From positions 1 through 26,756 of the IMG/VR virus record IMGVR_UViG_3300024324_000069: a stretch of 26,756 bases of DNA; one strand, written 5' to 3'. Positions 2,446 to 25,018 of the stretch are shown piece by piece. The position numbers were made by a program, and so were the translations under genes. This DNA is from a virus. The notes under the pieces are model-generated. The model saw only the letters and a program-made list of their open reading frames with translations, did not search any database and was not told where the DNA came from. Numbering within the stretch: position 1 is the first letter of the stretch; each line of letters begins with the position of its first letter.

Positions 2446-3624
2446 ATGACTGATTTAGCTCAAATTCCAATTTGACCTGGTAGTGGATCGGCGGTAAGTG
2501 GTAGTACTCCATATGGATTCTATGACACCGACGCTACATTCCAATCAGAGGCACCCAAATTCGCGAATTGATCAGCTACAACATTGGGGTATCCTATTGT
2601 AGAAGTTGAAATGCAAGACATAAATTTTTATGCGGCATTTGAAGATGCTGTAAATGAATATTCATCACATGTAAATCAAATCAATATTAGAGACAACCTA
2701 TTACATATGCAGGGTCAACCCACATCTTCAAATCTTAGTCAACAGGTAGTAACACCAACATTAGCTAGAACTGTTTTTATGTCACAACAGTATGGTTCTG
2801 AAACTGGGGCTGGTGGATTTGTAGATTGGAAAATGGGACATATTACAGCTAATAGTAGTTCCAATGAATATGACTTGAATGCATTATTTGCAGACGTATC
2901 CGAAAGTGGAGCGGCCATTGAAGTTAAAAGGGTATTCCACGATGGTTCTCCAGCCATATCAAGATATTTTGATCCGTATGCAGGAACTGGTGCTGGTTCA
3001 TACAATATGATGGATAACTTTGGTTGGGGCAATATGACACCCGCCGTACAATTTATGATGATGCCTATATACGCTGATTTACTTAGAATACAAGCGATTG
3101 AGTTCAACGATCAAATCAGAAAAAGTGCGTATCATTTTGAAATCCGAAATAACAAATTGAAATTATTTCCAATACCAACGACATCATTCGCGGTGTGGTT
3201 TGAATATATAATTGTAAGTGAACGTGATAATTCACTTGTAGCTCATTATAGTGGTTCCACATCAGGTAAGATAGCGGATTATTCCAATATTCCGTATAAC
3301 AATATGACATATACAGCAATCAATTCAGTTGGTAAACAATGGATACGCAAGTATGCCTTAGCTAATGCTAGGGAAACATTGGGTGATATCAGAAGCAAAT
3401 TCGGGTCAATTCCAATCCCAGATTCAGAAGTACAGTTGGATGGTGAAACCATGCGTGCAGAGGCAATTGCCGAAAAAGAACGGCTGGTTACTGAATTGAG
3501 GGAAACATTGGAAGCTATCAGTAGAAAAGCACTGGTCGAAGCCGACAAGGAAGAATCAGAGAATTTACAGGAAAAATTGAATAAAATACCAGTTCAGATT
3601 TACATTGGACTTTTGGGAGGATAA
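2446..3624 (+). CDS. Virion structural protein, probable neck protein (2 UGA-Trp codons), 392 aa
   Basis: The start is ATG 2446 (MTDLAQIPI-W-PGSG), with AGGAG 7 nt upstream. In-frame UGA codons at 2473 and 2569 (residues 10 and 42) must be read through. Under the standard code the protein would lose its N-terminus and its ribosome-binding site. Phrases such as PYGFYDTDATFQSEA, LGYPIVEVEMQD and a C-terminal KYALANARETLGDIRSKFG match a structural protein of T4-like environmental phages usually placed in the neck or head-completion region. The C-terminal 70 residues are strongly helical. The neck assignment is from memory of the family and its position; the structural role is firmer. Confidence 0.75.
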
Positions 3625-3625
3625 T

Positions 3626-3802
3626 ATGAAAAAATCAGAACTGCGTGAAATAATTAAAGAAGAAATTTTAAAGGAAGCCAAAAATGAAGCCAAAATGGTA
3701 ATAACTGGTAGAACTATTAACGTCAGTTATGATGACGTCGATGAATTTGCTAAATTTCTTGACAAATATAAAATCAAATACTCATTTCCAGCGAAGGGAT
3801 AA
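3626..3802 (+). CDS. MKKSELR-type small protein 1, 58 aa
   Basis: ATG 3626 follows the neck-gene stop by one base, with GGGAGGAT ideally placed upstream. It is the first of five genes whose products start MKKSELR. Here the segment reads MKKSELREIIKEEILKEAKN, a charged amphipathic helix containing LKE followed by A. The rest (MVITGRTINVSYDDVDEF...) is a small alpha/beta-looking domain. The set recalls the capsid-targeting sequences of T4 internal proteins, which are cleaved after (L/I)xE. That comparison is inference. Confidence 0.75.
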   Translation: MKKSELREIIKEEILKEAKNEAKMVITGRTINVSYDDVDEFAKFLDKYKIKYSFPAKG

Positions 3803-3806
3803 CACA

Positions 3807-4229
3807 ATGAAAAAATCAGAATTAAGACAAATGATAAGGGAAGAAATTCAGGCATTGGATGAAACCGTAGTTAAATTGGCCGATGACAAATATAATATCA
3901 AAAAAGTTGAATTTAAATTTTTGGATAAAATTTCCAAAAGGGGGTGGGAAGGAATTATTTTCCTTGGAGCCGGCGGTGAATTAAACGATTGGGTTAAGGG
4001 TATTAATGATCTATGGAATAAAGAAAAACTTGGAAGTGGTTTAATAGAGGACAAAATGCAGGGATTGTATTTCGTCAAAACTACAGGTGGCCGGATGGAT
4101 TTGGTAATGATATTTAAAACCAAAAGTAAATTGGATATTGGAAAATTGGCAATGTGGAGACTAGCTTTCGGTGACGCATCGTGGCTATCTGATTATGTTG
4201 TTAATTATAAATCTCATCATGAGGATTAA
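3807..4229 (+). CDS. MKKSELR-type small protein 2, 140 aa
   Basis: The start is ATG 3807, preceded by GAAGGGAT. It begins MKKSELRQMIREEIQALDET, with LDE before T as a possible processing site. The body (residues 20-140) has five UGG-encoded Trp and looks like a compact mixed fold: WEGIIFLGAGGELNDW, then KTTGGRMDLVMIF. No known domain is recognised. Since bodies differ among the family while the N-terminal segment stays constant, the N-terminus is more likely a targeting tag than part of a shared fold. Confidence 0.75.
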   Translation: MKKSELRQMIREEIQALDETVVKLADDKYNIKKVEFKFLDKISKRGWEGIIFLGAGGELNDWVKGINDLWNKEKLGSGLIEDKMQGLYFVKTTGGRMDLVMIFKTKSKLDIGKLAMWRLAFGDASWLSDYVVNYKSHHED

Positions 4230-4232
4230 AAA

Positions 4233-4496
4233 ATGAAAAAATCAGAATTAAGACAAATCATACGAGAAGAAATCCAGAAATTGAATGAAGCCAGTTATGT
4301 GGCATTGAAATCATTGGGTAAGGATATGGCTATCGATTCATATGAAGCTACCATATTTAATTCGAAAAGCTCTAAATCAAAGGGATTTGAATATGGAACG
4401 CCAAAATGGTTTGCCGCTTATAAAAAAATGAGTAAAGAAGATAAGAAAATGGTTGACGGAATAGCTGATGATTGGATGGGAAGGAAAGCTCATTAA
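4233..4496 (+). CDS. MKKSELR-type small protein 3, 87 aa
   Basis: ATG 4233 follows the previous stop by three bases, with GAGGAT upstream. It begins MKKSELRQIIREEIQKLNEA; LNE before A fits the proposed processing pattern. The first 20 bases are identical to those of the 3807 gene, indicating duplication. The C-terminal body is Lys- and Ser-rich and ends in DDWMGRKAH. Function unknown. Confidence 0.7.
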   Translation: MKKSELRQIIREEIQKLNEASYVALKSLGKDMAIDSYEATIFNSKSSKSKGFEYGTPKWFAAYKKMSKEDKKMVDGIADDWMGRKAH

Positions 4497-5384
4497 ATGA
4501 CAGGTAGATTTATGAATGATAATCAGAGAGAATGTCCAGAATGCGGAAAAATTTTAACATATTCTTCCGCGAAGGATATGAGATATATTGATAAACAAGG
4601 CCGATTGTGTCATTCTTGTGCCGGCAAAAAAAATGACAATAAAAGGAATAAATGGAATTTGCATAAAATTGATGGAGAGTGGAAACGAAATTGCCCCGAA
4701 TGCAATAAGTCTATGATTTATGCGTCAAAAAATAGTTTAACTAAGGCCGTTAGAACTGATTCAATGTGTGGAAGCTGTAGTCTCAAGGGTGATCGTTCTA
4801 GTTTTTTTGGAAAGTCGGGATCGAAAAATGGTATGTATGGTAAAAATTTGCATGATATTTGAATAAATAAATATGGTAAGCAAAAGGCCGATATTATGTG
4901 AAAAGGGCGATATGAAAATAATGCTAAAAAAGGCAAAGAATCACATTTTTACGGAATTGCCGGGAAATCACACCCAATGTTTGGCAAATCAAATTACTAT
5001 TTTTGGTATGGAAAATATGGAAAAGATAAGGCGGACAAATTGCAATATGAATGGAAAAATTCTATTAGTGCTGGAGTAATAAATTATTTATACGATGGGG
5101 ATATTGCAAAACGTGAAAAATATCTTGATAATTTGCCCAAAAAAGATAAATATTATTATGAAGTTAGAAAATTGAGTGAACGACAACCATTATATTTATT
5201 GGAAAATTGTGAAAATCGTGGGAAATTTGAATATCATTTAGATCATATAATTCCAATAATATATGGATTTAATAATAATATCCCTTCACATGAAATGGCG
5301 AGCATATCCAATTTGCAATTTATTCCATGGAAAGACAATTTGCATAAAAGCTCTACATATAAGGAGACTAATTTTGAGCGGTAG
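4497..5384 (+). CDS. HNH homing-type endonuclease with zinc ribbons and NUMOD3-like repeat (2 UGA-Trp codons), 295 aa
   Basis: Starts MTGRFMNDNQRECPECGK at the base after the preceding stop. Two CPEC...CxxC zinc-ribbon-like units cover about residues 12-100, followed by a NUMOD3-like patch (SSFFGKSGSKNGMYGK). UGA codons at 4860 and 4899 (residues 122 and 135) are read as Trp. Under the standard code the zinc fingers and nuclease would be separate fragments. The C-terminal HNH module is clear: YHLDHIIPI, later SNLQFIPWKDN. The family cuts DNA and promotes its own spread. It interrupts a structural operon and overlaps the next gene by 11 bp, and a 13-bp repeat flanks it (see findings). Confidence 0.85.
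4503..4515 (+). repeat. 13-bp direct repeat, left copy, at the HNH gene start
   Basis: GGTAGATTTATGA occurs here and again at 5380-5392, at matching positions near the start of two consecutive genes in the same reading phase (GRFM in both proteins). The two copies bracket almost the whole HNH gene. Confidence 0.75.
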
Positions 5385-5859
5385 ATTTATGACGGGTCGA
5401 GATTTAAAGCTCTTCGATCGAATCAATAAGGAAGTGATAGGAGATTTAGGATCAGGAAAACCTGGTTGGATAAATCAGACCGCCATATTATACAAAATTT
5501 CAGCCAAAGATACCGCAGTAGATATGTATGGGGAATCTTCAGACGGCAAGACATATAAGGTAGGAATTGAATTTGCATGTTTAATTAACCACGATGATTT
5601 CGACTGGAGCTCGGAAGCATTCGGACCTGATGAAAATCAAAATGCTACATTTCACATATTACGAGACGCGATGATACAAGCGGCAATTGTACCACAAGTG
5701 GGTGATATATTTGAATGGAATTACGCCTATTTTGAGATTAACGGCATCAATGAAAATCAGTTAATATATGGAAAATATGATAATAACTGGTCGGCATCAT
5801 ATATATGTCACAGGATAAGAAAATCCAACCTAAATATAGAAAGGGTGAGATCACAATAA
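5374..5859 (+). CDS. Conserved T4-like virion/neck-region protein, TTG start, 161 aa
   Basis: The frame has no good ATG. TTG 5374 is chosen because AAGGAG (5361-5366) lies seven bases upstream, and because the protein then begins (M)SGRFMTGRDLKLFDRIN, as I remember its homologues in T4-like environmental phages. The conserved order YGESSDGKTY, EAFGPDENQNATFHILRD, VGDIFEWNYAYFEINGINEN and SLNIERVR is typical of that family. The family is structural and lies near the neck/tail-completion genes; the exact role is unknown to me. All Trp are UGG. The start overlaps the HNH gene by 11 bp. Confidence 0.75.
   Translation: MSGRFMTGRDLKLFDRINKEVIGDLGSGKPGWINQTAILYKISAKDTAVDMYGESSDGKTYKVGIEFACLINHDDFDWSSEAFGPDENQNATFHILRDAMIQAAIVPQVGDIFEWNYAYFEINGINENQLIYGKYDNNWSASYICHRIRKSNLNIERVRSQ
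5380..5392 (+). repeat. 13-bp direct repeat, right copy, at the structural gene start
   Basis: Second copy of GGTAGATTTATGA. It encodes GRFM just after the TTG start of the 5374 gene. See the left copy at 4503. Confidence 0.75.
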
Positions 5860-5905
5860 TGAAAAAATCAGAACTACGACAAATGATTATGGAAGAACTA
5901 TTAAA
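5855..5905 (+). repeat. 51-bp direct repeat, copy 1
   Basis: Bases 5855-5905 are identical to 6360-6410. They cover four bases before the ATG plus the first 47 coding bases of two MKKSELR genes. Such identity in a coding repeat points to recent duplication or recombination at this segment. Confidence 0.85.
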
Positions 5906-6347
5906 TGAAGCGGCGACACCACAATCAATTTACTCCGATATGGATTCATTGACAAGTGACATAGTTAAAACCATTAGGAAACTTAAAAAGCTTGATAAAG
6001 AATATCAAATTGCGGCTGAAAATGAATTTAAAGATATATACGATAAAATAGAAAAGGCGTGTAAAAAATTGTACCCTACAGCACGTGTTCATAGGTTAAA
6101 AAATAATTCCGTATCTATAAGTTGGAAAGCTGACGAATACAGGGAAATGTTTATATGGAAAACTAAAAATGCAGGACCACATCCAAAAAATGGGGTGGAA
6201 AATGAAATCAACACTCCAGATTCAATAAAAGTGTCTTCAGATAAGTATGGATTTACAGTTAGTATTACTCAAAAATTTAAGAATGGCGTTTTATCCACAA
6301 AACCTACCAATAGTTTCTATACTAGAATAAATGCCGCAACTCGTTAA
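5859..6347 (+). CDS. MKKSELR-type small protein 4, 162 aa
   Basis: ATG 5859 overlaps the previous TAA (TAATG), and GGGTGAGAT lies upstream. The tag reads MKKSELRQMIMEELLNEA, with LNE before A at residues 15-17. The body is basic: a helical section (SDIVKTIRKLKKLDKEYQ...) followed by a beta-looking C-terminal half (ARVHRLKNNSVSISWKAD, then YGFTVSITQKFKNG). It looks like a small alpha/beta domain of unknown family. Basic character would suit a DNA-contacting cargo protein, but this is speculation. Confidence 0.75.
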   Translation: MKKSELRQMIMEELLNEAATPQSIYSDMDSLTSDIVKTIRKLKKLDKEYQIAAENEFKDIYDKIEKACKKLYPTARVHRLKNNSVSISWKADEYREMFIWKTKNAGPHPKNGVENEINTPDSIKVSSDKYGFTVSITQKFKNGVLSTKPTNSFYTRINAATR

Positions 6348-6359
6348 AACAAAGGATTA

Positions 6360-6410
6360 AATAATGAAAAAATCAGAACTACGACAAATGATTATGGAAG
6401 AACTATTAAA
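6360..6410 (+). repeat. 51-bp direct repeat, copy 2
   Basis: Identical to 5855-5905; it spans the start of the 6364 gene. The two copies are 505 bp apart, so recombination between them would delete or duplicate exactly one cargo gene. Confidence 0.85.
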
Positions 6411-6591
6411 AATCAATGAAGTATCCCGCGATAAACCGGAATATGTCAAACATATAAATGTGGGTCCCAATAAACTCAATGTAATATTGTATAATGATAG
6501 AATAAAAGTAACTAGATTAGTTAGTGGTGATGATTTTATTATGATTGATGAATTGCCCGCATTAATGAAAGTTCTACAGAAAATAAAATAG
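6364..6591 (+). CDS. MKKSELR-type small protein 5, 75 aa
   Basis: ATG 6364 with AAAGGAT upstream. It begins MKKSELRQMIMEELLKINEV; INE before V at residues 17-19 is the candidate processing site. The remaining 55 residues (HINVGPNKLNVILYNDRIKV...) look like a small beta-rich domain. It ends in TAG and is followed after nine bases by the sheath-stabiliser-like gene. Its DNA start is identical to that of the 5859 gene although the bodies are unrelated. Confidence 0.75.
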   Translation: MKKSELRQMIMEELLKINEVSRDKPEYVKHINVGPNKLNVILYNDRIKVTRLVSGDDFIMIDELPALMKVLQKIK

Positions 6592-6600
6592 GAATAAAAC

Positions 6601-7401
6601 ATGGCATCACGCACAAGACCACAACCTAGAACCGAACGACAAACTAAGGGTCGGGTAGTACAAAGAGCAGAACAGGTATCCAGAAAAAATGATACCGAAC
6701 CAAATGTATCCATTGGATTAATGGATATCGATGCCGCAGTTATGTACTATTTTCAGGAAGTGATCAAACCTACCGTAGTCGATAATGGCGAGCAAATAAA
6801 AGTACCAGTTATGTACGCAAATCCAGAACGATGGAAAGCCGCACAAGTTGACGGTTATATTCGTGACAACAAACGACAAATAATTATTCCAGTTGTAGCT
6901 TTCAGGCGAACTGGAGTCGAAAAAGACGATAGCATGCCAGTTGATAAACTGGATGCAAATGATCCAAAATTACACTATGTATTTGAACGAAAATATACAC
7001 AAAAGAACAGATACAGCAATTTTTCAGTAACACAAGGCGCGTTGCCACAACGAGAATACTACAAAGTGGTCGTGCCCGATTATGTTACTTTAAACTATGA
7101 ATGCACATTGTGGACAACCTATACAGAGCAAATGAATAGACTTGTCGAAAAGATAAACTATACTGATGGGTCATATTGGGGCGAACCTGGTAAGTTTAAG
7201 TTCCGATCCGAAGTTAGTGGATTCGATGATGCAAGCGAGTACGATGATGGAGAAAGAAAAATAAAGATGGGCTTTACGCTCACCGTAAAAGGTTATTTAA
7301 TACCAGAATCATTTAACGATTATATAACTACAACTAAAGCATATTCACCCAAAACTACTGGAATCAGCACTTCATTTAAAGAAAAAGTAGCTTTAAGTTA
7401 A
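6601..7401 (+). CDS. Probable tail completion / sheath stabiliser protein (T4 gp15- or gp3-like), 266 aa
   Basis: Starts MASRTRPQPRTERQ after GGAATAAAAC. A basic, probably disordered N-terminus of about 35 residues is followed by SIGLMDIDAAVMYYFQEVIK, VPVMYANPERWKAAQ, REYYKVVVPDYVTLNYECTL and SYWGEPGKFKFRSEV. These phrases match a conserved structural protein of T4-like environmental phages that lies just before the sheath gene. By synteny it corresponds to the gp3/gp15 class that caps the tail tube and stabilises the sheath. The three Trp codons are UGG. Family recognition is good; the exact gp number is uncertain. Confidence 0.7.
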   Translation: MASRTRPQPRTERQTKGRVVQRAEQVSRKNDTEPNVSIGLMDIDAAVMYYFQEVIKPTVVDNGEQIKVPVMYANPERWKAAQVDGYIRDNKRQIIIPVVAFRRTGVEKDDSMPVDKLDANDPKLHYVFERKYTQKNRYSNFSVTQGALPQREYYKVVVPDYVTLNYECTLWTTYTEQMNRLVEKINYTDGSYWGEPGKFKFRSEVSGFDDASEYDDGERKIKMGFTLTVKGYLIPESFNDYITTTKAYSPKTTGISTSFKEKVALS

Positions 7402-7816: not shown

Positions 7817-10195
7817 ATGGCCGAAAGAATAGTAAGCCCAGGTGTATTTACAAACGAAACCGATTTATCATTTCTTCCACAGGGAATTTCTGAAATTGGT
7901 GCTGCAATAATCGGGCCTACCATAAAAGGACCGGCATTTGTACCCACAATTATTAGAAACTTTCAAGAATTTGAAGAGATTTTTGGATCAACGGATAAGC
8001 GTTTTTATACACCATACGCAGTAGAACAATATTTAAGGAGCGCCGGCACAGTTACCATAGTCAGGACACTAGGACTGGGTGGTTACATAGCCGATTATGT
8101 CGCACTTAAACTTTCAAGTTCACTTGGCGATTACACAGCCGCAGTTCTTGCACCATCACGTGGTGGATCAAATGGAACGGCGGATTTATCAGCATGTACA
8201 ATTACAGGTGATTGATCGTCAGCAACATTAACAATAAGTGGTTCTGGAGTCGCGACTGCCACATACGCGATTTCATTTAATACTGGTAGTGCAAATTACA
8301 TTGAAAACGTATTAAGTGCGAGTCCACAAGTTCAAACTTCTGGACAGGCCACATTAGCCGCGTACCTTTATAAGAATTACAAAACATTCCAATCTAGCCA
8401 TGGATTTGATGCTAACATATCAGCGTCACTTTCTAGTGCATCACTTGATTTCAGCTTTGATTCAACATCTGCAACCGCGATTGACAATCTAGCTGGATAT
8501 ACCCCTTACATACAATCACAATTAATAAATGGATCACGATATAACTTATTTCAAGTTTATACACGCTCGCATGGAACTGATGTGAATAGTAAATATGTGG
8601 TAGTAATGTTAAATATCAAAGCGGCCGGCAGTGTACCGGGAAGTAGCTTTGGTTCATTCTCATTGCAAGTTAGAAAAACGGATCAAGTGGCATGGAAGCA
8701 GAAAAATGAAACGGTAGTGGAACAATGGGACGATCTAAACTTCGATCCTACCAGTACTAATTACTTTGCTCGTGCAATTGGTGATAGATATGTGGACATT
8801 AGCAATACTGGTAAATTGACATATAATGGTGACTGGCCTAATAAGTCCAAGCACGTATATATTAGAAATTACACCGCTATCGCTGATGGTTCCGTTCCAG
8901 TAACAGTAGTCCCAATGGGATTTGCTGCTGTGAGCAACGCCGATCCAACCACAACCGCAGTACCTTCTGCATCATTTGTAACATCTCAAGTGAATCCTGA
9001 TACATCAGCATTCAATTCAGCATATTACTATGGTTGGGATAACACCAAATATGATAATAGGGAATATCTTGCACCAATTCCAACATCAGCGGGCGTTGGT
9101 AACAACGTGACAATGAGTTTGGAAGATGTGTATGGTAATGCCGATGCAAGTGCATTGGGAACACCTTATTCAGACGCATCCGAAACAATCAACTTAACAG
9201 ATTCACACATTAAACAACGTAAATTCTCTGTACCATTCCAAGGTGCTTTTGATGGGGACAACCCAGCAAATCCAAAATCGACTGGTGCTGATATTGCGGC
9301 TAATAATGTAATGGGATATGATTGTTCAAGTGCCACTACTAGTGGATCAGTGATTTATAAACGTGCTATTAACGCCGTAAGTAATCCGGATGAATTTGAT
9401 ATCAATATGTTAGTTACTCCTGGAATTATCCATAAATGGCACCCCGTGGTTACAAATCACGCTGTTGACAAAATGGAAGCCAGAGGCGACGCATTTTATG
9501 TCATGGATGCTGCAGATATTGACGATACCATCGACAACGTGACTGATACGATTAGTGCATTAGACACTAACTATTCAGCTACTTATTATCCTTGGGTTAA
9601 AATCGCTGATAGAAACACATCACTTCCAGTATGGGTTCCACCTGGTGTTGTATTACCTGGTGTGATTGCATATACAGATGGGGTAGCTCACGAATGGTTT
9701 GCACCAGCAGGTCTAAATCGTGGTGGCTTGACTACTGTATTGGAAGCAAAGACTAGATTAACACATGATGAACGTGATACACTTTATGAAAATAGAGTTA
9801 ATCCAATTGCATCATTCCCAGGACAGGGTGTAGTTGTGTGGGGTCAAAAGACCTTACAGGCACTTCCTTCAGCTTTGGATCGTGTTAATGTTAGACGCTT
9901 GTTAATTAAACTGAAGAAATATATCGCTTCAACATCAAGATACTTGGTATTCGAACAGAACGATTCTGCGACTAGAACAAGATTTTTGAATATGGTTAAT
10001 CCATTTTTGGAATCGGTTCAGCAGAATAGTGGTTTGACTGCATTCCAAGTTGTGATGGATGAGACGAACAATACTCCAGACGTGATAGATCGTAACAGAC
10101 TTGTGGGCCAGATTTTTATACAACCGACCCGCACAGCCGAGTTCATCGTTCTAGATTTTGTCGTGGTCCCGACGGGCGCAACATTTCCATCATAA
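7817..10195 (+). CDS. Tail sheath protein (T4 gp18-like; 1 UGA-Trp codon), 792 aa
   Basis: Starts MAERIVSPGVFTNETDLSF with TAGGAGAA upstream. This opening is the hallmark of contractile sheath proteins. GAAIIGPTIKGPAFVPTII and the C-terminal VWGQKTLQA, DRVNVRRLLIKLKKYI, FIVLDFVVVP complete the conserved sheath core. The middle (about residues 110-450) is the variable, surface-exposed insertion. An in-frame UGA at 8213 (residue 133, ITGD-W-SSA) splits the gene under the standard code. No start codon follows within the next 360 bases, so read-through is the only sensible explanation. The protein forms the contracting outer tube of the tail. Confidence 0.93.
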
Positions 10196-12472: not shown

Positions 12473-13597
12473 ATGGGCTATGATAGAAAATTATACGAAT
12501 CCATAGATAAACAATGGGAAAATTATGTTGAACTGGATGAAATAGATTTCAAAACTAAAGCTGATTTCGACGCATATAAAGAAAAACACAAAATGCGTGA
12601 TACCACAAAAGTTCGTGTGGGTGGCAAAGATACTACTGCCGGCGACGCGTCCGAAGACCCAAATGATGATTTTAATAGGGGTGGTGAAAGTGGTGGTGAA
12701 GACGACGACATTGGATATAGTTCAGAAGATAGATGGGACGACTTAGACCAAGAAGAAAAAGATGAAATTGAGAATACTCCTTGGAAAGAATTGGAAAAGC
12801 GGGAACGGGATATGCTTAAAGATGCGGGCCTCGATCCAGAATCTAAAGCACAAGAAAAATCTGCAACCAAATCCGGCTCAAAAATGTCTGATAAAGAAAA
12901 GCAAAAATTTAAACCAAAATACGATCACGATTCCAGAACCCAAAGCCCTGAAGTAAAAGCGGCCTTGAAAATGCATTGGAAAAAAGCTGCACAATATGGC
13001 TGGGAAGATCACATTGGTACAAGTGATGAAGATTTTAAACATATTCATCCCAAAGTTATAAGTCAAAAGGTATCTAATAAAAAGCAGTGGGATACTGATA
13101 GTAGTTTTGCTAGTGAGAGTGATTTTAATAAGGGTGTTCGGAGACCGGAAGAAGACAGACGGACTACTGATGAGAGAAAAATGCAATTTATTAGGCAGGG
13201 AATACACCCATTCGGTGGTAGAATGACAGATCATGGGTCTGGGGTATATCATTATTCAAACATGTATCAGGCAGATCACCCAGAAGAAATTAAACATTAT
13301 CAAGATGAATTAAAAGGACTTCTGAAAAAGGACCCAGACTTGATAAAACATGCCAATAAAAATAATCCCGATAATTATCTTCAAGATTTATTGGATTGGA
13401 AACCAGGAGATAAAGTACAATCTACTATAAATCACGAACCATATCCAGACTATCACGCGCGAAATGAAAAGGCCATTGGTATGAAATCTATGAAAGCCGC
13501 TGAAAAGGGGAAACCATTTACAACATTAACCAGAGGTGGCAAAGAAAAATACGAATCAATCTCCAAAAGATGAGAATCATTTATACAAAGGAAATAA
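12473..13597 (+). CDS. Large charged protein with YESI-KQWE N-terminal module (1 UGA-Trp codon), 374 aa
   Basis: Starts MGYDRKLYESIDKQWENY after TAGGAGAT. Residues 1-60 form a module shared with the 13791 gene. The rest is highly charged and low in hydrophobics, with acidic, disordered-looking residues 60-150 and a His/Lys-rich centre (HIGTSDEDFKHIHPKV). The standard-code stop is UGA 13571. Read as Trp, the protein ends eight residues later at TAA 13595, two bases before the next ATG, and its tail (YESISKRWESF) repeats the N-terminal motif. No enzyme motif seen. An encapsidated or structural accessory role is possible. Confidence 0.75.
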
Positions 13598-13790: not shown

Positions 13791-14219
13791 ATGAAAAAGG
13801 GATTATATGAATCAATAGCTAAACAATGAGAAAATTTTGTTGAATTGGATGAAATCGATTTCAAAGATCAAGCCGAATTTGATGCATATAAAGAGAAGCA
13901 TAAAATGCGTGATTCTACAAAAGTCAGGGTAGGTGGAAAAGATACTACGGCTGGGAAAGCTTCAGGCAAGAAAAAGAAACCGATGGTTTCATCCGATCAT
14001 ATACAAATGAGAGGATTACCTGGTTGAGAGCTTGAATCATTGGAAGGATATTTAATAGGTCCTAATGGTGAAGAACTTAAACCCAAAACTAAAGAGTGGA
14101 AAAAAATATATAAGAAATTGACTGGGTTTGATAAAAGGGATGTTGATGACGTTCTTTGGCAAAATAAAGATAATGCACGTATAAGTCGCTGACCATCTAT
14201 CCCCAAATGGATTAGATAA
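13791..14219 (+). CDS. Paralogue of the 12473 N-terminal module (3 UGA-Trp codons), 142 aa
   Basis: Starts MKKGLYESIAKQ-W-ENFVEL. Residues 4-56 align closely with residues 6-60 of the 12473 protein, including FDAYKEKHKMRD and TKVRVGGKDTTAG. UGA at residue 13 is opposite UGG in the paralogue. Further UGA codons are at 14025 and 14190 (residues 79 and 134). Under the standard code the gene would be cut into three pieces. The C-terminal half (GYLIGPNGEELKPKTKEW...) is unique. Tandem duplication followed by divergence of the C-terminal bodies is the simplest history. It ends TAATG, overlapping the next gene. Confidence 0.8.
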
Positions 14220-14707
14220 TGAAGCACATCAAGCTCACATCTTTAATGGAAGGTCCGAAATTTACAAGTATTAAGGACGCTCCAAAAAAATCCAAACCAC
14301 TTCCAGATGATCTTATTCAATCATACAATGACAATGAAATGCAACTTAGATACCAACAAACACATGGGGCTGGGCTTGGTTGGCACATGCAAAATGAACA
14401 ATATGGTTCAGTAGGAAATACTAGAATATATTTATGGAAAAGCTTTCAAATGGGTGAAAAGAAATTTCTTCAATTTGGAGTTGAACTTAATGGCAAATGT
14501 GAAATTTCAATGAGTGAGTGGGATGGCAAAGAAAGAAGTTATACGGTAGATAAAGTTCCATTTAAATTAAATTATGATGGGATTGAGTGGGGTGATTATT
14601 GGCACGACGATAATAAAAAACGTCAAAAAGAAGATGCTAAAAGATTTGATAAAGTTGTGAAACACGCCAAGAAAAATTGGTCTAAATATGCAAAGAAATT
14701 TAAATAA
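14219..14707 (+). CDS. Hypothetical protein with short tag-like N-terminus, 162 aa
   Basis: Starts MKHIKLTSLMEGPKF, overlapping the previous stop (TAATG). The short basic-hydrophobic opening containing LME before G resembles the (L/I)xE patterns of the MKKSELR proteins and may likewise be a processed tag. The body (YQQTHGAGLGWHMQNEQYG..., then NTRIYLWKSFQMGEKKFLQF) looks beta-rich with a very basic helical C-terminus (KHAKKNWSKYAKKFK). All six Trp are UGG. Function unknown. Confidence 0.7.
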   Translation: MKHIKLTSLMEGPKFTSIKDAPKKSKPLPDDLIQSYNDNEMQLRYQQTHGAGLGWHMQNEQYGSVGNTRIYLWKSFQMGEKKFLQFGVELNGKCEISMSEWDGKERSYTVDKVPFKLNYDGIEWGDYWHDDNKKRQKEDAKRFDKVVKHAKKNWSKYAKKFK

Positions 14708-16305: not shown

Positions 16306-19008
16306 ATGGCAAAACGAACTTCTAGAAATATTGAGGCCAAAGAAACACTTGATTTAATGCGAGCTCAAATCACGAAGCTTGATGAGCAAATTGAAAAGGC
16401 CGATACTTTGGCAGAAAAGGGTAAAAAACGTAGTGCGGCCGAAGAAGTAACATATCAAAATATAAAAAAGCAAAATGCCGAATTAAAGAGAAAAATAAAA
16501 AACACCGCTACAAACGAAACTCAAATAGAAAATCTCGGGAAAAAATTTGCCAATCTTAGCAAGTCACAACAAAAGATTCTACAAAATACAGTCAATTGAA
16601 CTGACAATATGGCAACTCTGCAAGGAATTACCCTAAAGGAATCGGAATCACTGCAAAAAATACGAGATTTATCTAGTGAAACTATGGATTTGGGTTTGGC
16701 TATGGTACACAACCGGAAGAATTTAAATTCTGAAGAATTTGAAACGGTTGATTTATCTTCACATTTATCCGATCTGATGAAAACTAGAAAATCTCTGGCC
16801 GACGGTGAATATGATATTACGGAACAAGGTGTTGAAAATAATATTAAACTGATAAACGCTCAAATCAAAAATGTTAAAAGTATGCAAGCACAGTCAAAAA
16901 TGCATGATTTGATAAACAAAAAAAATACAGAATTAAATTCAAAAATTGAAGCTCAAAAGGAAAAATGGGGTGATATAAAGGCCAAATTGATATCCATTGT
17001 CACCAATCCAATAACGGCCCTTAAAGTTGGCATTTTGGCTATAGGGGTGGGGTTAGTAGCATTGGGTAAGAAAATGGTTGATTTCGGTAATGAAACTGGA
17101 TTTTCATATGGTCAATTAATTCAATTTGGACCGGCCATATTGTTTGCGCGAGAGGAAGCGAAAGCACTATTGGCTGAGTTTGGTTCACTTGATATAGCGA
17201 CAAGTCAAAATTTAATGAAAATGAAATTATTGGGATTCCAATATGGGGTATCCGCCGAATCTACAGCTAAATTGGCTGAAATGATGATGGCTGTATCAGG
17301 TTCATCCTTTTCAGCATCAATGCATAGTTTGGCAATGGTAGGTGAATTGGCTCGAGCAAACAAAGTTGCTCCAGCGGCAGTTATGGAAGATTTGGCTGGG
17401 GACACCGAAATGTTCGCCACATACGCAAAAGACGGTGGGGACAATTTATTTACAGCGGCAATCGAAGCTCGTAAATTGGGATTGAGTATTGCAACGACTG
17501 CAAAAATGGCTGAAAGTCTATTGGATTTTGAAAGTTCAATCGAATCTTCAATGGAAGCATCAATTCTATTAGGCAGAAATATCAATACGGATAAAGCTAG
17601 ACAATTGGCATTTACAGGTGACTTGGCAGGAATGCAACGAGAGGTATTAAAACAAGTTGGTAGTCAAGCGGAACTGGAAAATATGCAGTATTTCCAAAGG
17701 AAAAAATTAGCTGCAGCATTTGGTGTGGGAGTTGAAGAATTAACAAAAATGGTATTGAATCAAGAGCATTTAAATCATATGTCAACCGATCAAACTGCCG
17801 CTGCAGAAAAACACGCTGCAATGGTAAAGAATATCGGGACCGCGTGGAACGACATTACTGGGGCTTTAAAGAAAAGATTTCAACCAATGTTAGAGTCCAT
17901 TGGTGAAAAAATACCTGCAATATTGGAAACGATGAGTGGGTGGATAACTGACTATATAGCTCCAGCATTAGAATGAATGGTTAAAAATTGAAAAATAATA
18001 GCTATAACAGTCGGCGTACTTTTACTACCAGTTATTGCGATAGCGGCAAAATTTGCATTGATGGTGGCCTCCGTTGGTTTATTGGTCACTGGTATTAAAA
18101 AACTGTATGAATATTCTCCAGGATTATTGGCGAGCCTGACAGCTCTCGCTGCGGTTGCTTTATTATTCAGAAAACGAATTATTGGCAATGGAATGCTCAC
18201 AAAGTTGGGCAAAATGAAAGGTTTGATATCTGGAATGGCCTCTTCAAAGGGTGGATTATCAACAGATAAGGCTGGCAGATTAAGAGATGCTAAAGGAAGA
18301 TTTGCAAAAGCTCCAAAGCCAAAGGGTAAGGCTGGACTTGGATTCGTGGAACGAATTAATCCCAAAAAGATGTTGGCTGGTGCTGCAGCAATGGTAATTG
18401 TGGCTGGTGCATTATACATAACCGCACAGGCATTGGTGGTATTTAATAAAGTGGATTGGCCCAGTTTGGGTAAGGCCGCTTTAGCATTGGGTGGATTGGT
18501 AGTAGCGGTATTAGCATTGGGGGCAATAATGTCTAGTGGTGTTGGAACTGTGGCAATTTTGGCTGGTGCGGCAGCAATGGTAATAATGGCTGGCGGATTA
18601 TTGGTATTGGGATATGCTATTCAGGCGATAGGAACTGGATTTACTATGTTATCTGCTGGATTTCTTAGTTTTGAACCTATACTTACAAAATTGGCCCCAA
18701 TGACATCTTCCATAATAAGCTTGGGAGAAGCATTTGGTAAACTTGGTTGAGGTATGGCAAAACTGGCTGGCGGGGCATTATTATTGTCTCCATTTTTGCC
18801 TGTATTGGACAAATTGACTGGAATAGGTGGATCGTCGGATGTGACTGTTTCTGGAGATGGAAATACTGTTAATCAAGCGACTGATATGGCCGAAACGAAT
18901 AAATTATTAACTCAAATAGTGGGTGTAAATAGGGAATTATTAAAACAAAATAAGGATTTGATGAACAAACTGACTGGTAAAGTTGGAGAACTGGGAGTAT
19001 CGGACTAA
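16306..19008 (+). CDS. Tail tape measure protein (T4 gp29-like position; 4 UGA-Trp codons), 900 aa
   Basis: Four standard-code fragments in one frame join into a single 900-residue protein once UGA at 16597, 17974, 17989 and 18748 (residues 98, 557, 562, 815) are Trp. The N-terminal 200 residues are coiled coil. Hydrophobic segments follow at about 235-255 and 564-610 (AITVGVLLLPVIAIAAKF), then Ala/Gly-rich membrane-like stretches at about 690-780. The C-terminus is short and polar. Long helices with internal hydrophobic patches are typical of tape measures, which set tail length and enter the host membrane. At about 1.5 angstrom per residue it would give a tail near 130 nm. Confidence 0.85.
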
Positions 19009-22000
19009 TGAGTATTATAGATTTAACAAGTGATTTATCAGCTGGTGCTGGAGACAATTTAAGTCAACATGGTGGACGCCATGGTGGATTATCAAATGAA
19101 ACTCCATCCATGCCTGCACATTCAATTGAGCATTCTCAACTTGATACTGGAGTTGGTAATTCAAGTAATGCACAATCATTTAATGATGGTCATGGATATA
19201 CTGTTACTGGAAATAAAGAATTTGATAGACCCAATGAAAGTGCATTAGCTAATATGCTGGAAGCGGTGGGCAGTCAGGTACACCCAACTGGTGAAGGTAT
19301 TCAAACTGGTCCTGTTAATTATTTTAGTGGGGTTACTGGAGAATGGGGACCTGGGACATTGCCCGCTGGATTTACTTTTAATATGGCATACGGGGACTCA
19401 AAACTGGCACCAAATGACACAATGGCACTAAGTACAACCAGACATACTGTGGGGTTAGATACATTGGAACCTATCATCTTTGCGGCACCTAATGCATATG
19501 ACAGCGATTTTATGACTACTCCAATTGCTAATAACATAAGTAATCTGCAGGGATTTTCAGATTCATTAACTCATAATGTAAGTATGATTACATTAACTGG
19601 ACCAACCGCTGGTGAAACATATCAAACGGCAATAAATACGACACCCAGTACATTGGGCGCACATGGGAGTGATTTTATGACTACTCCAATTGCCAGTTAT
19701 ATTAGTAGATATGCTCCTCCAATTGAAACATCGGTAACTAATCCTGATATTGTTTATGACACTCCGGCGATAACATTGCCAATTTCATACGCTAAAACTA
19801 GAGCGGCATTTAATCATCACACGGCGATTCCATTTGCAGATTCTGTTCAATATATGACAGGAGACATAGCTGATACTGGTGTTCCAATATCATATGAGAA
19901 AACAGACCGAACATTTTTTGATCATTATCCAGAGGTAGATTTTGAAGATTCATTGCATTGGATTGAGGGTGATGTCAATTTGGCCGCACACAATCCAACT
20001 ACTATTAGAGCTAGACAATTATCTAGAATAGCGACTGCTCCAGTATGATCCACAACTAAAGATGCTATCAATACATCATTTGTGGATGGAAAACAACCTA
20101 CATTTCATATTCCAAAACAATATAGTTTTGTTGGTAATTATGGATTACAGACTAGAATACTGACCGATTCGGATGAAAACATTGATTGGGCTGGAACATA
20201 CCTACCAAATAAAGCGTCTACTAAACCTACATCAACATTACAATTTGCCAGCTTATTTGGACCAATTAAAGACAGTAGATTTAAAACCGGCGATGCAATA
20301 AACATGACATTTACGGATATATTTGGGCATGCATATGAAGCATTGTCGTCATTGAATTCCAATATCGCTTTACCTACAAAAGAAGATACTCCAAGTCCTA
20401 CGGATTCGTGGTTTAAAACATTCAGTATAGGCAAGTCATATACAAAAACATACAAACGACGATCTAGAATTCAATATTTTGATACCAGTACCACATTGAC
20501 AATGGAACCATATACTAGAAATTTTCAATTGGGCAAACAGAATGAAAATTCACCAAAATTTCTGAATACTGGTTTTTATAGGGGGGAGGCTTATTCTCCT
20601 TCCGTGGCCAAAATTGGAGAGGGCAGCTCAATAACAAATAACACACGTGGTGATCAATCACGCTTAAAAGATTTGCATAAAGATTCGTGGGGAAATGATG
20701 ATGCTACAAATTTGGATAATTATTACGGCCGTGGATTTAAAGACGGTGATGAACTCAATTATAGAATTGGAGATGGACATAATGATATAGGATTTAACCA
20801 ACCATTTTACCTTCATGATATAGGAGATAAATATGGATTGGGTAATACAGGCGCTTTTGATGAGGGCATAGTACGTGGTGGATTAATTACATCCATATCA
20901 AGAACTATTGCCGATGTATTCAGAATCGGCAAATTTATACTTTCGACTAAAGGTGTTCTATTTGGAATAAAACAAGTGGCATTGCAGACCCTTAATACTA
21001 AGGAAGAAACTAGAACATGGAATCCATTGTCATTGGGTTCTATAACGCCTACAGTTCATATCAACCGACATTGGAATACTGGATCACCACTTGTATCATC
21101 TACCGTTTTGGAATTCGAAGCGGCCAATCCTTTAGATACAAAACTTGTTGATTGGGGTGAAAATTCATTGAATTATCATTTCAGAAAAGAAGAAGCAATT
21201 ATAGATAATCCGGGAACAAATCCGTTATTATCAAAACTGGGAAGTCTACTGGGCAATAATGCGGAAGCAAGTAGAGAGATAGATAGAATTCGAAAAGATC
21301 AATTTGGTGATGATGAAAAATTTGCTGTAATTGATGTTGGAGATCAAAGTAATGCTGGAATTCTTAGACAATTTACAGATGGGTCTGAAACAACCGGAGA
21401 TGGATTTTTCTTTAGGCCCGAGACATTTAATGCCGGTTTGAAAAAGGCTGGTTTTAGTCATATTAAGGCCGATTTGGGATCGAGTAAGCTTATGACAAGT
21501 AAGGTTGACAAAGTTAATGCCCTACCATACGGGAGTGTTAATGGAAAAGAGCCAAAGGAAATTAACAATTTAGAAGTACGAGATTTCATTCCATTTAAAT
21601 TTAAAGATGTGGTCAATAATAAATGAATCATTTTCAGAGCCATTCTGTCTGGGATATCGGATAGTGTTACACCAGATTGATCAGAAGAAAAATACATAGG
21701 CCGCCCCGATAAAGTATATACATACGCTGGAGTGGACAGGGAAATAAGTTTCAATTTCAATGTATATCCAAAGACGAAACAGGAACTGCCAATTTTATGA
21801 GAAAAAATGAATTATTTAATTGGAATGTGTTACCCCAGCTGAAAAGATTTTTCCAATAGTGATATGGAACGAATGGTATCTCCATTTGCCGAATTGACCA
21901 TTGGTAATATGTGAACGGGGGCTCCAGGATTTTTAACCAGCTTATCAATAACGGTAGAAGATAACACCACTTGGGAATTGGATGATCATTTCAAATTGCC

Positions 22001-22262
22001 CAAGCATTTAAGTGTTAGTGTTGGGTATAAATACATTGGAAAACACAAGCCGGCTCAAAAGGGTAAGCATTATGATTTGGATTGGCTGGATTATAAAAAT
22101 AACAATAATAAAAGTTCCACTGCATATTTGGATAATCCAAATGGCAATTATCCCGATAGGCATTCCGATGGGATGGATTTAAGGGAATTGTTCGCGGAAA
22201 TGGGGCAATCTGGAAAGGGCGATGGACCATTTTCATGGTCTGATCCATCGTGGGAGGATTAA
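19008..22262 (+). CDS. Large baseplate protein, probable tail-tube initiator (gp48/gp54-like; 6 UGA-Trp codons), 1084 aa
   Basis: ATG 19008 overlaps the tape measure stop. Six UGA codons (20046, 21624, 21678, 21798, 21840, 21912) join three long frames and a 117-codon UGA-rich bridge. The C-terminal domain has the conserved order RAILSGISDSVTPD-W-SEEK, GRPDKVYTYAG, ELPIL-W-EKMNYLIGMCYP, then LTIGNM-W-TGAPGFLTSLS. This matches baseplate-tube junction proteins with a tube-like fold. The N-terminal 350 residues are polar and Thr/Asn/Ser-rich with two repeated SDFMTTPIA units, like a flexible or fibrous region. The assignment rests on domain resemblance and neighbours. UGG also occurs about 12 times. 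Confidence 0.75.
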
Positions 22263-22570: not shown

Positions 22571-25018
22571 ATGATTAATCTACAACCCATACATAGTAAA
22601 ATTAGGGCGGAATTGCACAGACGACAAAAGTTGTTAAATAGAGAAGGCATACTATTTGAAGGTCCGCAGACCGATGGTACTGGGAAAAAGAAAGCCGACG
22701 CAAATAACATTTTTGCAAAATCGACTTGAATCCGGATGGTTGGGCTTATCAAAGATGATAAACCTGTAATAATAGGTGGGGGATTGTTAAAAGAAAATCA
22801 AGAAGCATATTATGGTTTTGAGGATATGTATAATTCTCCTAGAAATACTGGTGATAATCAGTACAGACCAATGCCTGGAGTAAAAAGTATTAGTGTTGAA
22901 TATAAAAATACATTGGCGACATTGCGTACTGCTACTATTAATTGGACTTGTTGGTCATTTGACGATGTTACCAAATATACTCCATATTTTTTAAAACCGG
23001 GTAGAACTGTTATTTTAGAATGGGGATATTCATATTCGGACAATGATATGGTATTACATGATATAAATGAAAAAAGCCCAGATATGATATTGGCACATAA
23101 AAAAATGATGGAAAATTCATTTAATTCCAATGGAACTTATGATGGTATGATTGGTCTCGTAACCAATTTTGAATGATCGACTAGAGACGATGGGGGAATC
23201 GATTGCACTACCAATATTTCTTCAATGGGATTAGACATATTAAAACAACGAATTACTCCAGTGGACAATATAAATGTCGCAAAAACGGATAAAAATGATA
23301 ACCGAAAAGTTGAACTTAAACAAAATTTCCAAACATTTCTAAGGGACATTTCAACCAAACTTGAAAAATTTAAACATGTGGATGATGGTGGAATTGGCAA
23401 TGAAGGAATGCCATTACAATGAATTAAGAATAGATTTGAACCATCTACCGGTGCCGATCCGAGATCACATGAATTATATATATCATGGGGATGAATAGAA
23501 GATAATATATTAAATAAATATTTAAGCAAAGTGGACGCTCACGGTGTAGTAATAAGTTCAATTCGAAGTATAGAACCTATATTAAAAGACAACGGGGATC
23601 AACACACAATCGAAACGGCTGGATTGGCTGAAACTGAAGGATTGCCCCCAGATCAGCTGGCATGACAATCAACTAAAATATCAAGTCATGATAAATTGAT
23701 TTCTCCAGATTATAAATTTTTTATTTTACCTGGACAATCGCATAGAAATGTGGATGATCTTACTGATGTTCATCCGATATTGCGGGATTTTAATAAGGAT
23801 TTCCCAACGTTCCAAGTAACTGATGATCCAGCTGAATATAAAAATTTAAAGATAGGATACATGCGAAATATAATGTTCAATTGGAATTATTTGATAACAA
23901 ATGTATTCAATGACGCGTCTGATATCACCAGTGCACTTAAAAAATTGTTTGAGAGAATGAATGAAAATGTTGGAATATGAGATTTGCAATTGGTATCTGC
24001 ACCAGATAGACCCGGTACATTAAAGATTGTAGACATGAATCTTACCAAACAATCTGTAAAATCGTTGCTTAAAATTCCGAGTGAATTGGATAAATATTGA
24101 GAAACTGTTACTGGTGGTTTATTCCATTTCCCAGTTATGGGTAAGGATAGTATTGTTACTGCACAATCATTAAATGCTAAAATTACAAATGAAATGGCTA
24201 TGGCGATGATGTGGGATAATGCTGAGGAAATTACGTCACCTTCCCAAATGGGAGGCATTAAAATTGTCGCTGCTAGTAAATTGGGTAGTGCTCCTGGTGA
24301 TAAAGACGGGCTGATTCATGATATTAAACCCGGTTGAAATTTTGATAAATTTGGTAATAAATCCGCTGGGGTAAATTCCAAATTTGATACGGAAAGTGGT
24401 CCCGATGTTGGTATTGAGGCCATTGATAAAAAAGGGTCAGATTCAGAAAATCACGATGATGAAACCGCCGAAACTGTCAAAAGCATACATACGTTGAAAT
24501 TTACCGAAAAACAATTTTTTGATTTTAATTTCAAATCGGAAGATAAAGACACATTGACTGGCAGTGTTTATGGATATTGGGGGAATTTATTAAATACCAA
24601 GGACACTCCATGATTGGATGTCATGAAATATTTAATTACATACGATGAAAAAGAATCGGTTTCTATTGATTTTGATCCCATGGTCGCGTTGGAAATCTCA
24701 TTAACATTGGATGGTATATCTGGGATTTTCCCAGGAAATTGTTTTACAAGCAATTATCTGCCTTCCCAATATAAAGATCGGGTATTATTTCAGGTTATGA
24801 GTTCTACACAAGAGCTGGACGCGTCCAGCTGAAAAACTTCCATTGTGGGAAAAATGAGAATATCCGTAAGGGATCAACTTGACACGGAAAAATCCGACCG
24901 AAATTTCCTAAAAGATGAAAAGGCCGAAAATGAAGAACAAATTGAAAGGACTGAGAACTCGGAAACGAAAGCTGAATTAATGAGACGATTGGGTTATATT
25001 ATTCCGGATGCATTATAA
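22571..25018 (+). CDS. Baseplate hub-like structural protein (10 UGA-Trp codons), 815 aa
   Basis: Starts MINLQPIHSKIRAELHRRQK just after the gp53 stop. Ten UGA codons (22727, 23174, 23420, 23492, 23663, 23978, 24098, 24335, 24611, 24830) would cut it into eleven pieces. With UGA as Trp one frame stays open for 815 codons. FAKST-W-IRM, RPMPGVKSISVEYKNTLATL, INWTCWSFDDVTKYTP, GRTVILEWGYS and YISWG-W-IEDNI are, as I recall, typical of a large baseplate/hub protein of environmental T4-like phages, where Trp occupies the UGA positions. A charged tail ends in AELMRRLGYIIPDAL. UGA outnumbers UGG here (10 to 7). Confidence 0.8.

Follow-up and report, generated by a model that had tools for sequence, protein, structure and literature searches.

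We analysed a 26,756-base fragment of an uncultured T4-like virus (IMG/VR record IMGVR_UViG_3300024324_000069; hereafter the window, on which all positions are counted), in which five open reading frames (ORFs) for small proteins begin with a common N-terminal tag. Comparison with related phages makes it very probable that this shared N-terminus is a capsid-targeting sequence (CTS) like that of the T4 internal proteins, which a gp21-type protease cuts off, and that the proteins carrying it are packaged and probably injected. The initial annotation had proposed such a tag in front of five unrelated bodies; the starts, the shared N-terminus and the unrelated bodies are as it described, and each sequence-level check supports its capsid-targeting interpretation. 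The tagged proteins are:

3626..3802, plus strand: tagged protein 1, MKKSELREIIKEEILKE then A; 58 residues
3807..4229, plus strand: tagged protein 2, MKKSELRQMIREEIQALDE then T; 140 residues
4233..4496, plus strand: tagged protein 3, MKKSELRQIIREEIQKLNE then A; 87 residues
5859..6347, plus strand: tagged protein 4, MKKSELRQMIMEELLNE then A; 162 residues
6364..6591, plus strand: tagged protein 5, MKKSELRQMIMEELLKINE then V; 75 residues

All five translations open with MKKSELR[QE][IM]I.EE[IL], and their tags end, in the same order, with LKE, LDE, LNE, LNE and INE. Exactly these five ORFs match the tag pattern in the record, and a reversed-pattern control gives no match. The shared start had been put at the first 12-15 residues; it is indeed shared, but the real tag is longer, at 16-20 residues counting the final E, with the xE ending at residues 17-19 in the five ORFs. 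The bodies that follow are about 40 to 145 residues long and mutually unrelated. Profile searches give no confident Pfam or PHROG match for any of the five bodies, and a domain search finds no ADP-ribosyltransferase domain in the five proteins. The body of tagged protein 3 has relatives on two other contigs (L007 and L076), where they carry the same tag type, and tagged protein 5 has a 61% orthologue at the matching place in G007, a related phage described below. Matches to the bodies of 3807 and 5859 are confined to near-identical contigs.

The tag recurs far beyond chance. A pattern for tag residues 1-10 matches 99 viral contig stretches and has no match in 257 Gb of genomes from bacteria and archaea, while a longer MKKSELK version occurs in two stretches of the cellular set, on metagenome-assembly contigs of 5.1 kb and 15.4 kb. 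Widening the set with related patterns yields 217 distinct tagged proteins of at least 40 residues, which fall into 161 body clusters (146 of them single-member); the initial annotation had suggested looking for MKKSELR with other bodies in related genomes, and very many are found. In this set residues 1-10 are imposed by the search pattern, and residues 11-14 and the [LI]xE ending are left free. The free residues 11-14 are mostly [RK]EE[IL], and 82% of the proteins have an [LI]xE with its E at residues 13-27, as against 13% for equal-size body windows of the same proteins and 18% (43/234) for the N-termini of other predicted G007 genes. Similarly, 175 of the 217 place the E at residues 15-24, compared with a mean of 64 and a maximum of 85 when residues 13-27 are shuffled. 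The residue right after the E is most commonly A, then G and S. The relatives' gene maps and body clusters were built under the standard code, which truncates some proteins at TGA; the effect on the leader statistics is small, since they rest on the first 27 residues.

An alternative is that the DNA and not the protein is conserved, the tag being a recombination target or a cassette for translation start that is copied from gene to gene. The first 42 nucleotides of the tag are the same in 5859 and 6364, which indicates that copying of tag DNA does occur; other pairs differ at several synonymous codons. Across the tag set, however, the codons used for Ser, Leu, Arg and Ile are free to vary while the residues stay constant, which argues for selection on the protein, and the DNA upstream of the five tagged ORFs is not shared. 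We therefore regard conservation at the DNA level as extremely unlikely.

The T4 protease gp21 cleaves after L/I-x-E, and a stretch as short as the first 10 residues of IPIII is enough for packaging (PMC9026906). The gp21-like protease and matching capsid sites that the initial annotation had looked to are present in relatives: of 27 tag-bearing records tested, 17 match Pfam Peptidase_S77 (gp21) and 15 match gp23. GELDHP and SSRG motifs of the relatives' gp21 align with GELNHP and SSRG of T4 gp21. Nearly all of these gp21 proteins have, close to the N-terminus, a [hydrophobic]xE with S, A or G as the next residue, most have another site of this kind towards the C-terminus, and the relatives' gp23 has a [hydrophobic]xE site shortly upstream of the conserved body. 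In G007, for example, the N-terminal sites of gp21 and gp23 are QQITE and QLIDE, each followed by S; in the T4 sequences compared, the leaders of IPI, IPII and IPIII end in TITE, FIAE and FIAE, each followed by A.

If the tag is a capsid-targeting sequence, it would bind the prohead core during head assembly and bring the attached small protein inside, where a gp21-type serine protease would cut after [LI]xE and remove the tag. The mature protein would then stay in the head with the DNA and pass into the host upon infection. The five genes would be interchangeable cargo inserted among neck genes 13, 14 and 15. That the proteins are packaged, cleaved and injected and act against host defences is our inference from sequence.

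Such an arrangement resembles the T4 internal proteins IPI, IPII and IPIII with their CTS, in which a short N-terminal leader is carried by small, otherwise unrelated proteins (PMC9026906, PMC3012670, PMC12373910). Internal proteins of T-even phages have the leader alone in common and act against defences (PMC3012670, PMC12373910), and three T4 internal proteins with a common leader have different restriction enzymes as targets, each blocking one (PMC12373910). Further shared features are the L/I-x-E leader end, the presence of a gp21 protease in the phage group and the variable gene sets. The tag itself differs from the leader of T4 IPII and IPIII: it reads MKKSELR..EE..LNE over 16-20 residues, whereas the T4 leader is MKTYQEFIAE, 10 residues. 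By eye only the MK and the xE end are common to the two, which suggests a tag that works like a CTS and is not evidently homologous to the T4 leader. Gene location also differs, since T4 internal-protein genes lie near lysozyme e or gene 57 and the tagged genes lie among neck and head genes. A more distant likeness is to head proteins of SPN3US and phiKZ, where gp21-like proteases remove propeptides after a short motif ending in Glu (PMC9026906); these belong to a distant phage group, and the likeness is one of description.

The locus in the window is framed by neck genes:

2446..3624, plus strand: gp13-like neck protein, left flank of the cassette; profile match to T4 gp13 at 3e-11; phrog_211, head-tail adaptor Ad2; ORF read with TGA as Trp (code 4)
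4497..5384, plus strand: HNH-type homing endonuclease-like ORF, non-cargo, read with TGA as Trp; inserted at the start of the gp14-like gene
5377..5859, plus strand: gp14-like neck protein within the cassette; best profile match T4 gp14 (1e-5) among six T4 proteins; 77% identical in G007
6601..7401, plus strand: gp15-like tail terminator, right flank; profile match to T4 gp15 at 6e-9

Window proteins match T4 gp13, gp14, gp15, gp18 and gp19 by sequence or profile, and the first three matches give the order gp13, three tagged genes and the endonuclease, gp14, two tagged genes, gp15. Genes 13, 14 and 15 are contiguous in T4, with no genes between them. The nearest long relative, G007 (140 kb; gp13 88% and gp15 86% identical), has the same gene order as the window, with no tagged gene between gp13 and gp14 and two between gp14 and gp15, one of which is the 6364 orthologue. 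In Microcystis phage Mel-JY01, the gp14-like gene alone lies between gp13 and gp15. The gp13-gp15 interval thus differs between phages by its tagged genes, which marks the locus as a site of cargo gain and loss. We further note that the endonuclease-like ORF and the gp14-like gene begin with the same codons (MTGRFM) and that the gp14-like gene restarts at 5377 as LSGRFM; from these sequences, the gp14-like gene seems to have lost its start to the endonuclease-like ORF.

The position of the window's tagged genes between gp13, gp14 and gp15 would also suit a tag that docks proteins onto another assembly, neck or tail, with the xE ending incidental. Yet most tags of close relatives are located in the gp21-gp23 interval, as in the smaller relatives G008, G022 and G023, and the xE ending recurs in several tag types and at the junctions where tags are swapped, so that docking is very unlikely. 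All eight exact tags of G007 fall at 3.7-38 kb, where its head and neck genes lie.

The tags adjoin gp21, gp22 and gp23 in G007, G008 and G022, and one cluster of 34 tagged proteins is acidic and scaffold-like, the examples seen being all of the MKKSELK version. Both observations would fit a tag that sends small proteins to the prohead core for a structural or scaffolding role comparable to that of T4 gp67 and gp68, the proteins then being cut and lost rather than delivered. The 161 body clusters, with gain and loss at one locus, are however a poor fit to essential scaffold parts, and one cargo is an ADP-ribosyltransferase relative; we consider a scaffold role unlikely.

Several observations weigh against capsid targeting. 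The tag does not align with the T4 CTS beyond MK, and about 18% of the tagged proteins have no clear [LI]xE. No gp21 match is found in the window, itself a fragment, and all the evidence on gp21 and gp23 comes from relatives, of which G007 is the closest. In other phages several tagged genes lie at least 17 kb away from gp21. Finally, single-sequence structure predictions of 3807 and 5859 are uninformative, with a mean pLDDT (predicted local distance difference test) of 43-45.

The MKKSEL tag is one of several in this phage group. Relatives also hold xE-ending N-termini of the types NFDL..KYLAEGKL and IKL..LL.E, and identical kinds of cargo sit behind different tags, with homology beginning at the xE junction or within a few residues of it. 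One cargo, SKQVG.LYH[FY]T, follows an MKKSELK tag in L275 (RKVLNE, then SKQVGTLYHFTD) and an IKL tag in L217 (LIDLLNE, then SKQVGLLYHYTS). A second, CP..TQD, is found behind three tags in relatives. Similarly, an [IL]DFK module follows LDE in the window gene at 12473, ITE behind an MKKSELR tag in L058 and INE behind a third N-terminus in L084. Many other cross-tag pairs are internal or within-ORF matches and were excluded from the evidence. The L217 copy of the first cargo matches Tox-ART-HYD1, an ADP-ribosyltransferase family, above the cut-off, and its L275 homologue falls below it. This recalls T4 Alt, a packaged ADP-ribosyltransferase (PMC9026906); unlike Alt, the putatively packaged cargo of L217 and L275 is smaller, belongs to another ADP-ribosyltransferase family and is absent from the window.

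The window holds candidates for these other tag types:

12473..13597, plus strand: probable further cargo with an LYES..W tag, MGYDRKLYESIDKQWENYVELDE then IDFK
13791..14219, plus strand: second protein with an LYES..W tag, MKKGLYESIAKQWENFVELDE then IDFK; intact only with TGA as Trp
14219..14707, plus strand: possible cargo with an IKL-type tag, MKHIKLTSLME then G; one residue short of the IKL type

The 12473 gene is probably a further cargo gene that uses a different tag. It shares with 13791-14219 the tag and a KEKHKMRDxTKVRVGGKDTTAG module, after which the two diverge, and its C-terminal end has a second copy of the YESI.K.WE motif. The initial annotation had added 14219 and 16043 as possible members. 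The former is plausible, although of another tag type, and no relative of its body is found. The latter is doubtful, because its G007 orthologue starts MGIMD and lacks MSKLNE; a relative in L099 keeps MSKLDEG, and we set 16043 aside as weak.

Some tagged proteins of relatives (in L029, L102 and L098) have two cargo domains or two tags per chain with a second xE junction between them, as if cut into two products. A cargo that occurs behind three tags (L197, 5178-5615) matches a protein annotated as a high potential iron-sulfur protein in named phages. A tblastn search with the 20-residue tag finds no match in named phages, an absence that is unproven given that BLAST is weak for short, low-complexity queries. 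The MKKSEL tag is also absent from the scanned stretches of Mel-JY01, Flavobacterium phage immuto, RM378 and a 484-kb phage. NFDL-type N-termini are present in the scanned stretches of immuto, whose PduO-type cobalamin adenosyltransferase (L141, 2632-3633) starts with an NFDL-like sequence, MADNFNLRSFLTE, and could be a packaged protein.

The alignments indicate that TGA is Trp in this phage. Under this reading the sheath, the tape measure and other genes that are otherwise split each become one ORF, and the genes at 7817-10195, 16306-19008, 19008-22262, 22571-25018 and 4497-5384 are whole only in this way. At TGA positions the relatives most often have W, then Y and F, which supports Trp; that the listed ORFs stop at TAA or TAG under code 4 follows from the code chosen and is no evidence by itself. 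A tRNA search finds none in the window; in G007 it finds no more than two, both tRNA-Gly. The five tagged ORFs contain no in-frame TGA and stop at TAA or TAG, and are thus unchanged by the code. No enrichment of the T4 late promoter TATAAATA is found in the window, with six seen against 4.3 expected and five of the six on the opposite strand.

Capsid targeting of the T4 type is known; the tag sequences find no counterpart in the literature searched, which covers few subscription papers. It appears fairly probable that environmental T4-like phages use several unrelated N-terminal address tags (MKKSEL, NFDL..KYLAEGKL, IKL..LL.E and LYES..W) as exchangeable units fused to their cargo at the site of the prohead protease, which would allow a tag with its xE to serve for cataloguing packaged proteins, ADP-ribosyltransferase-like ones included, from metagenomes. 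If these tags act as those of T4 do, environmental phages would deliver well over a hundred unknown proteins into their hosts, and the search for new anti-defence proteins and host-takeover enzymes among them would be directly testable. The same targeting principle would then work with several different tag sequences.
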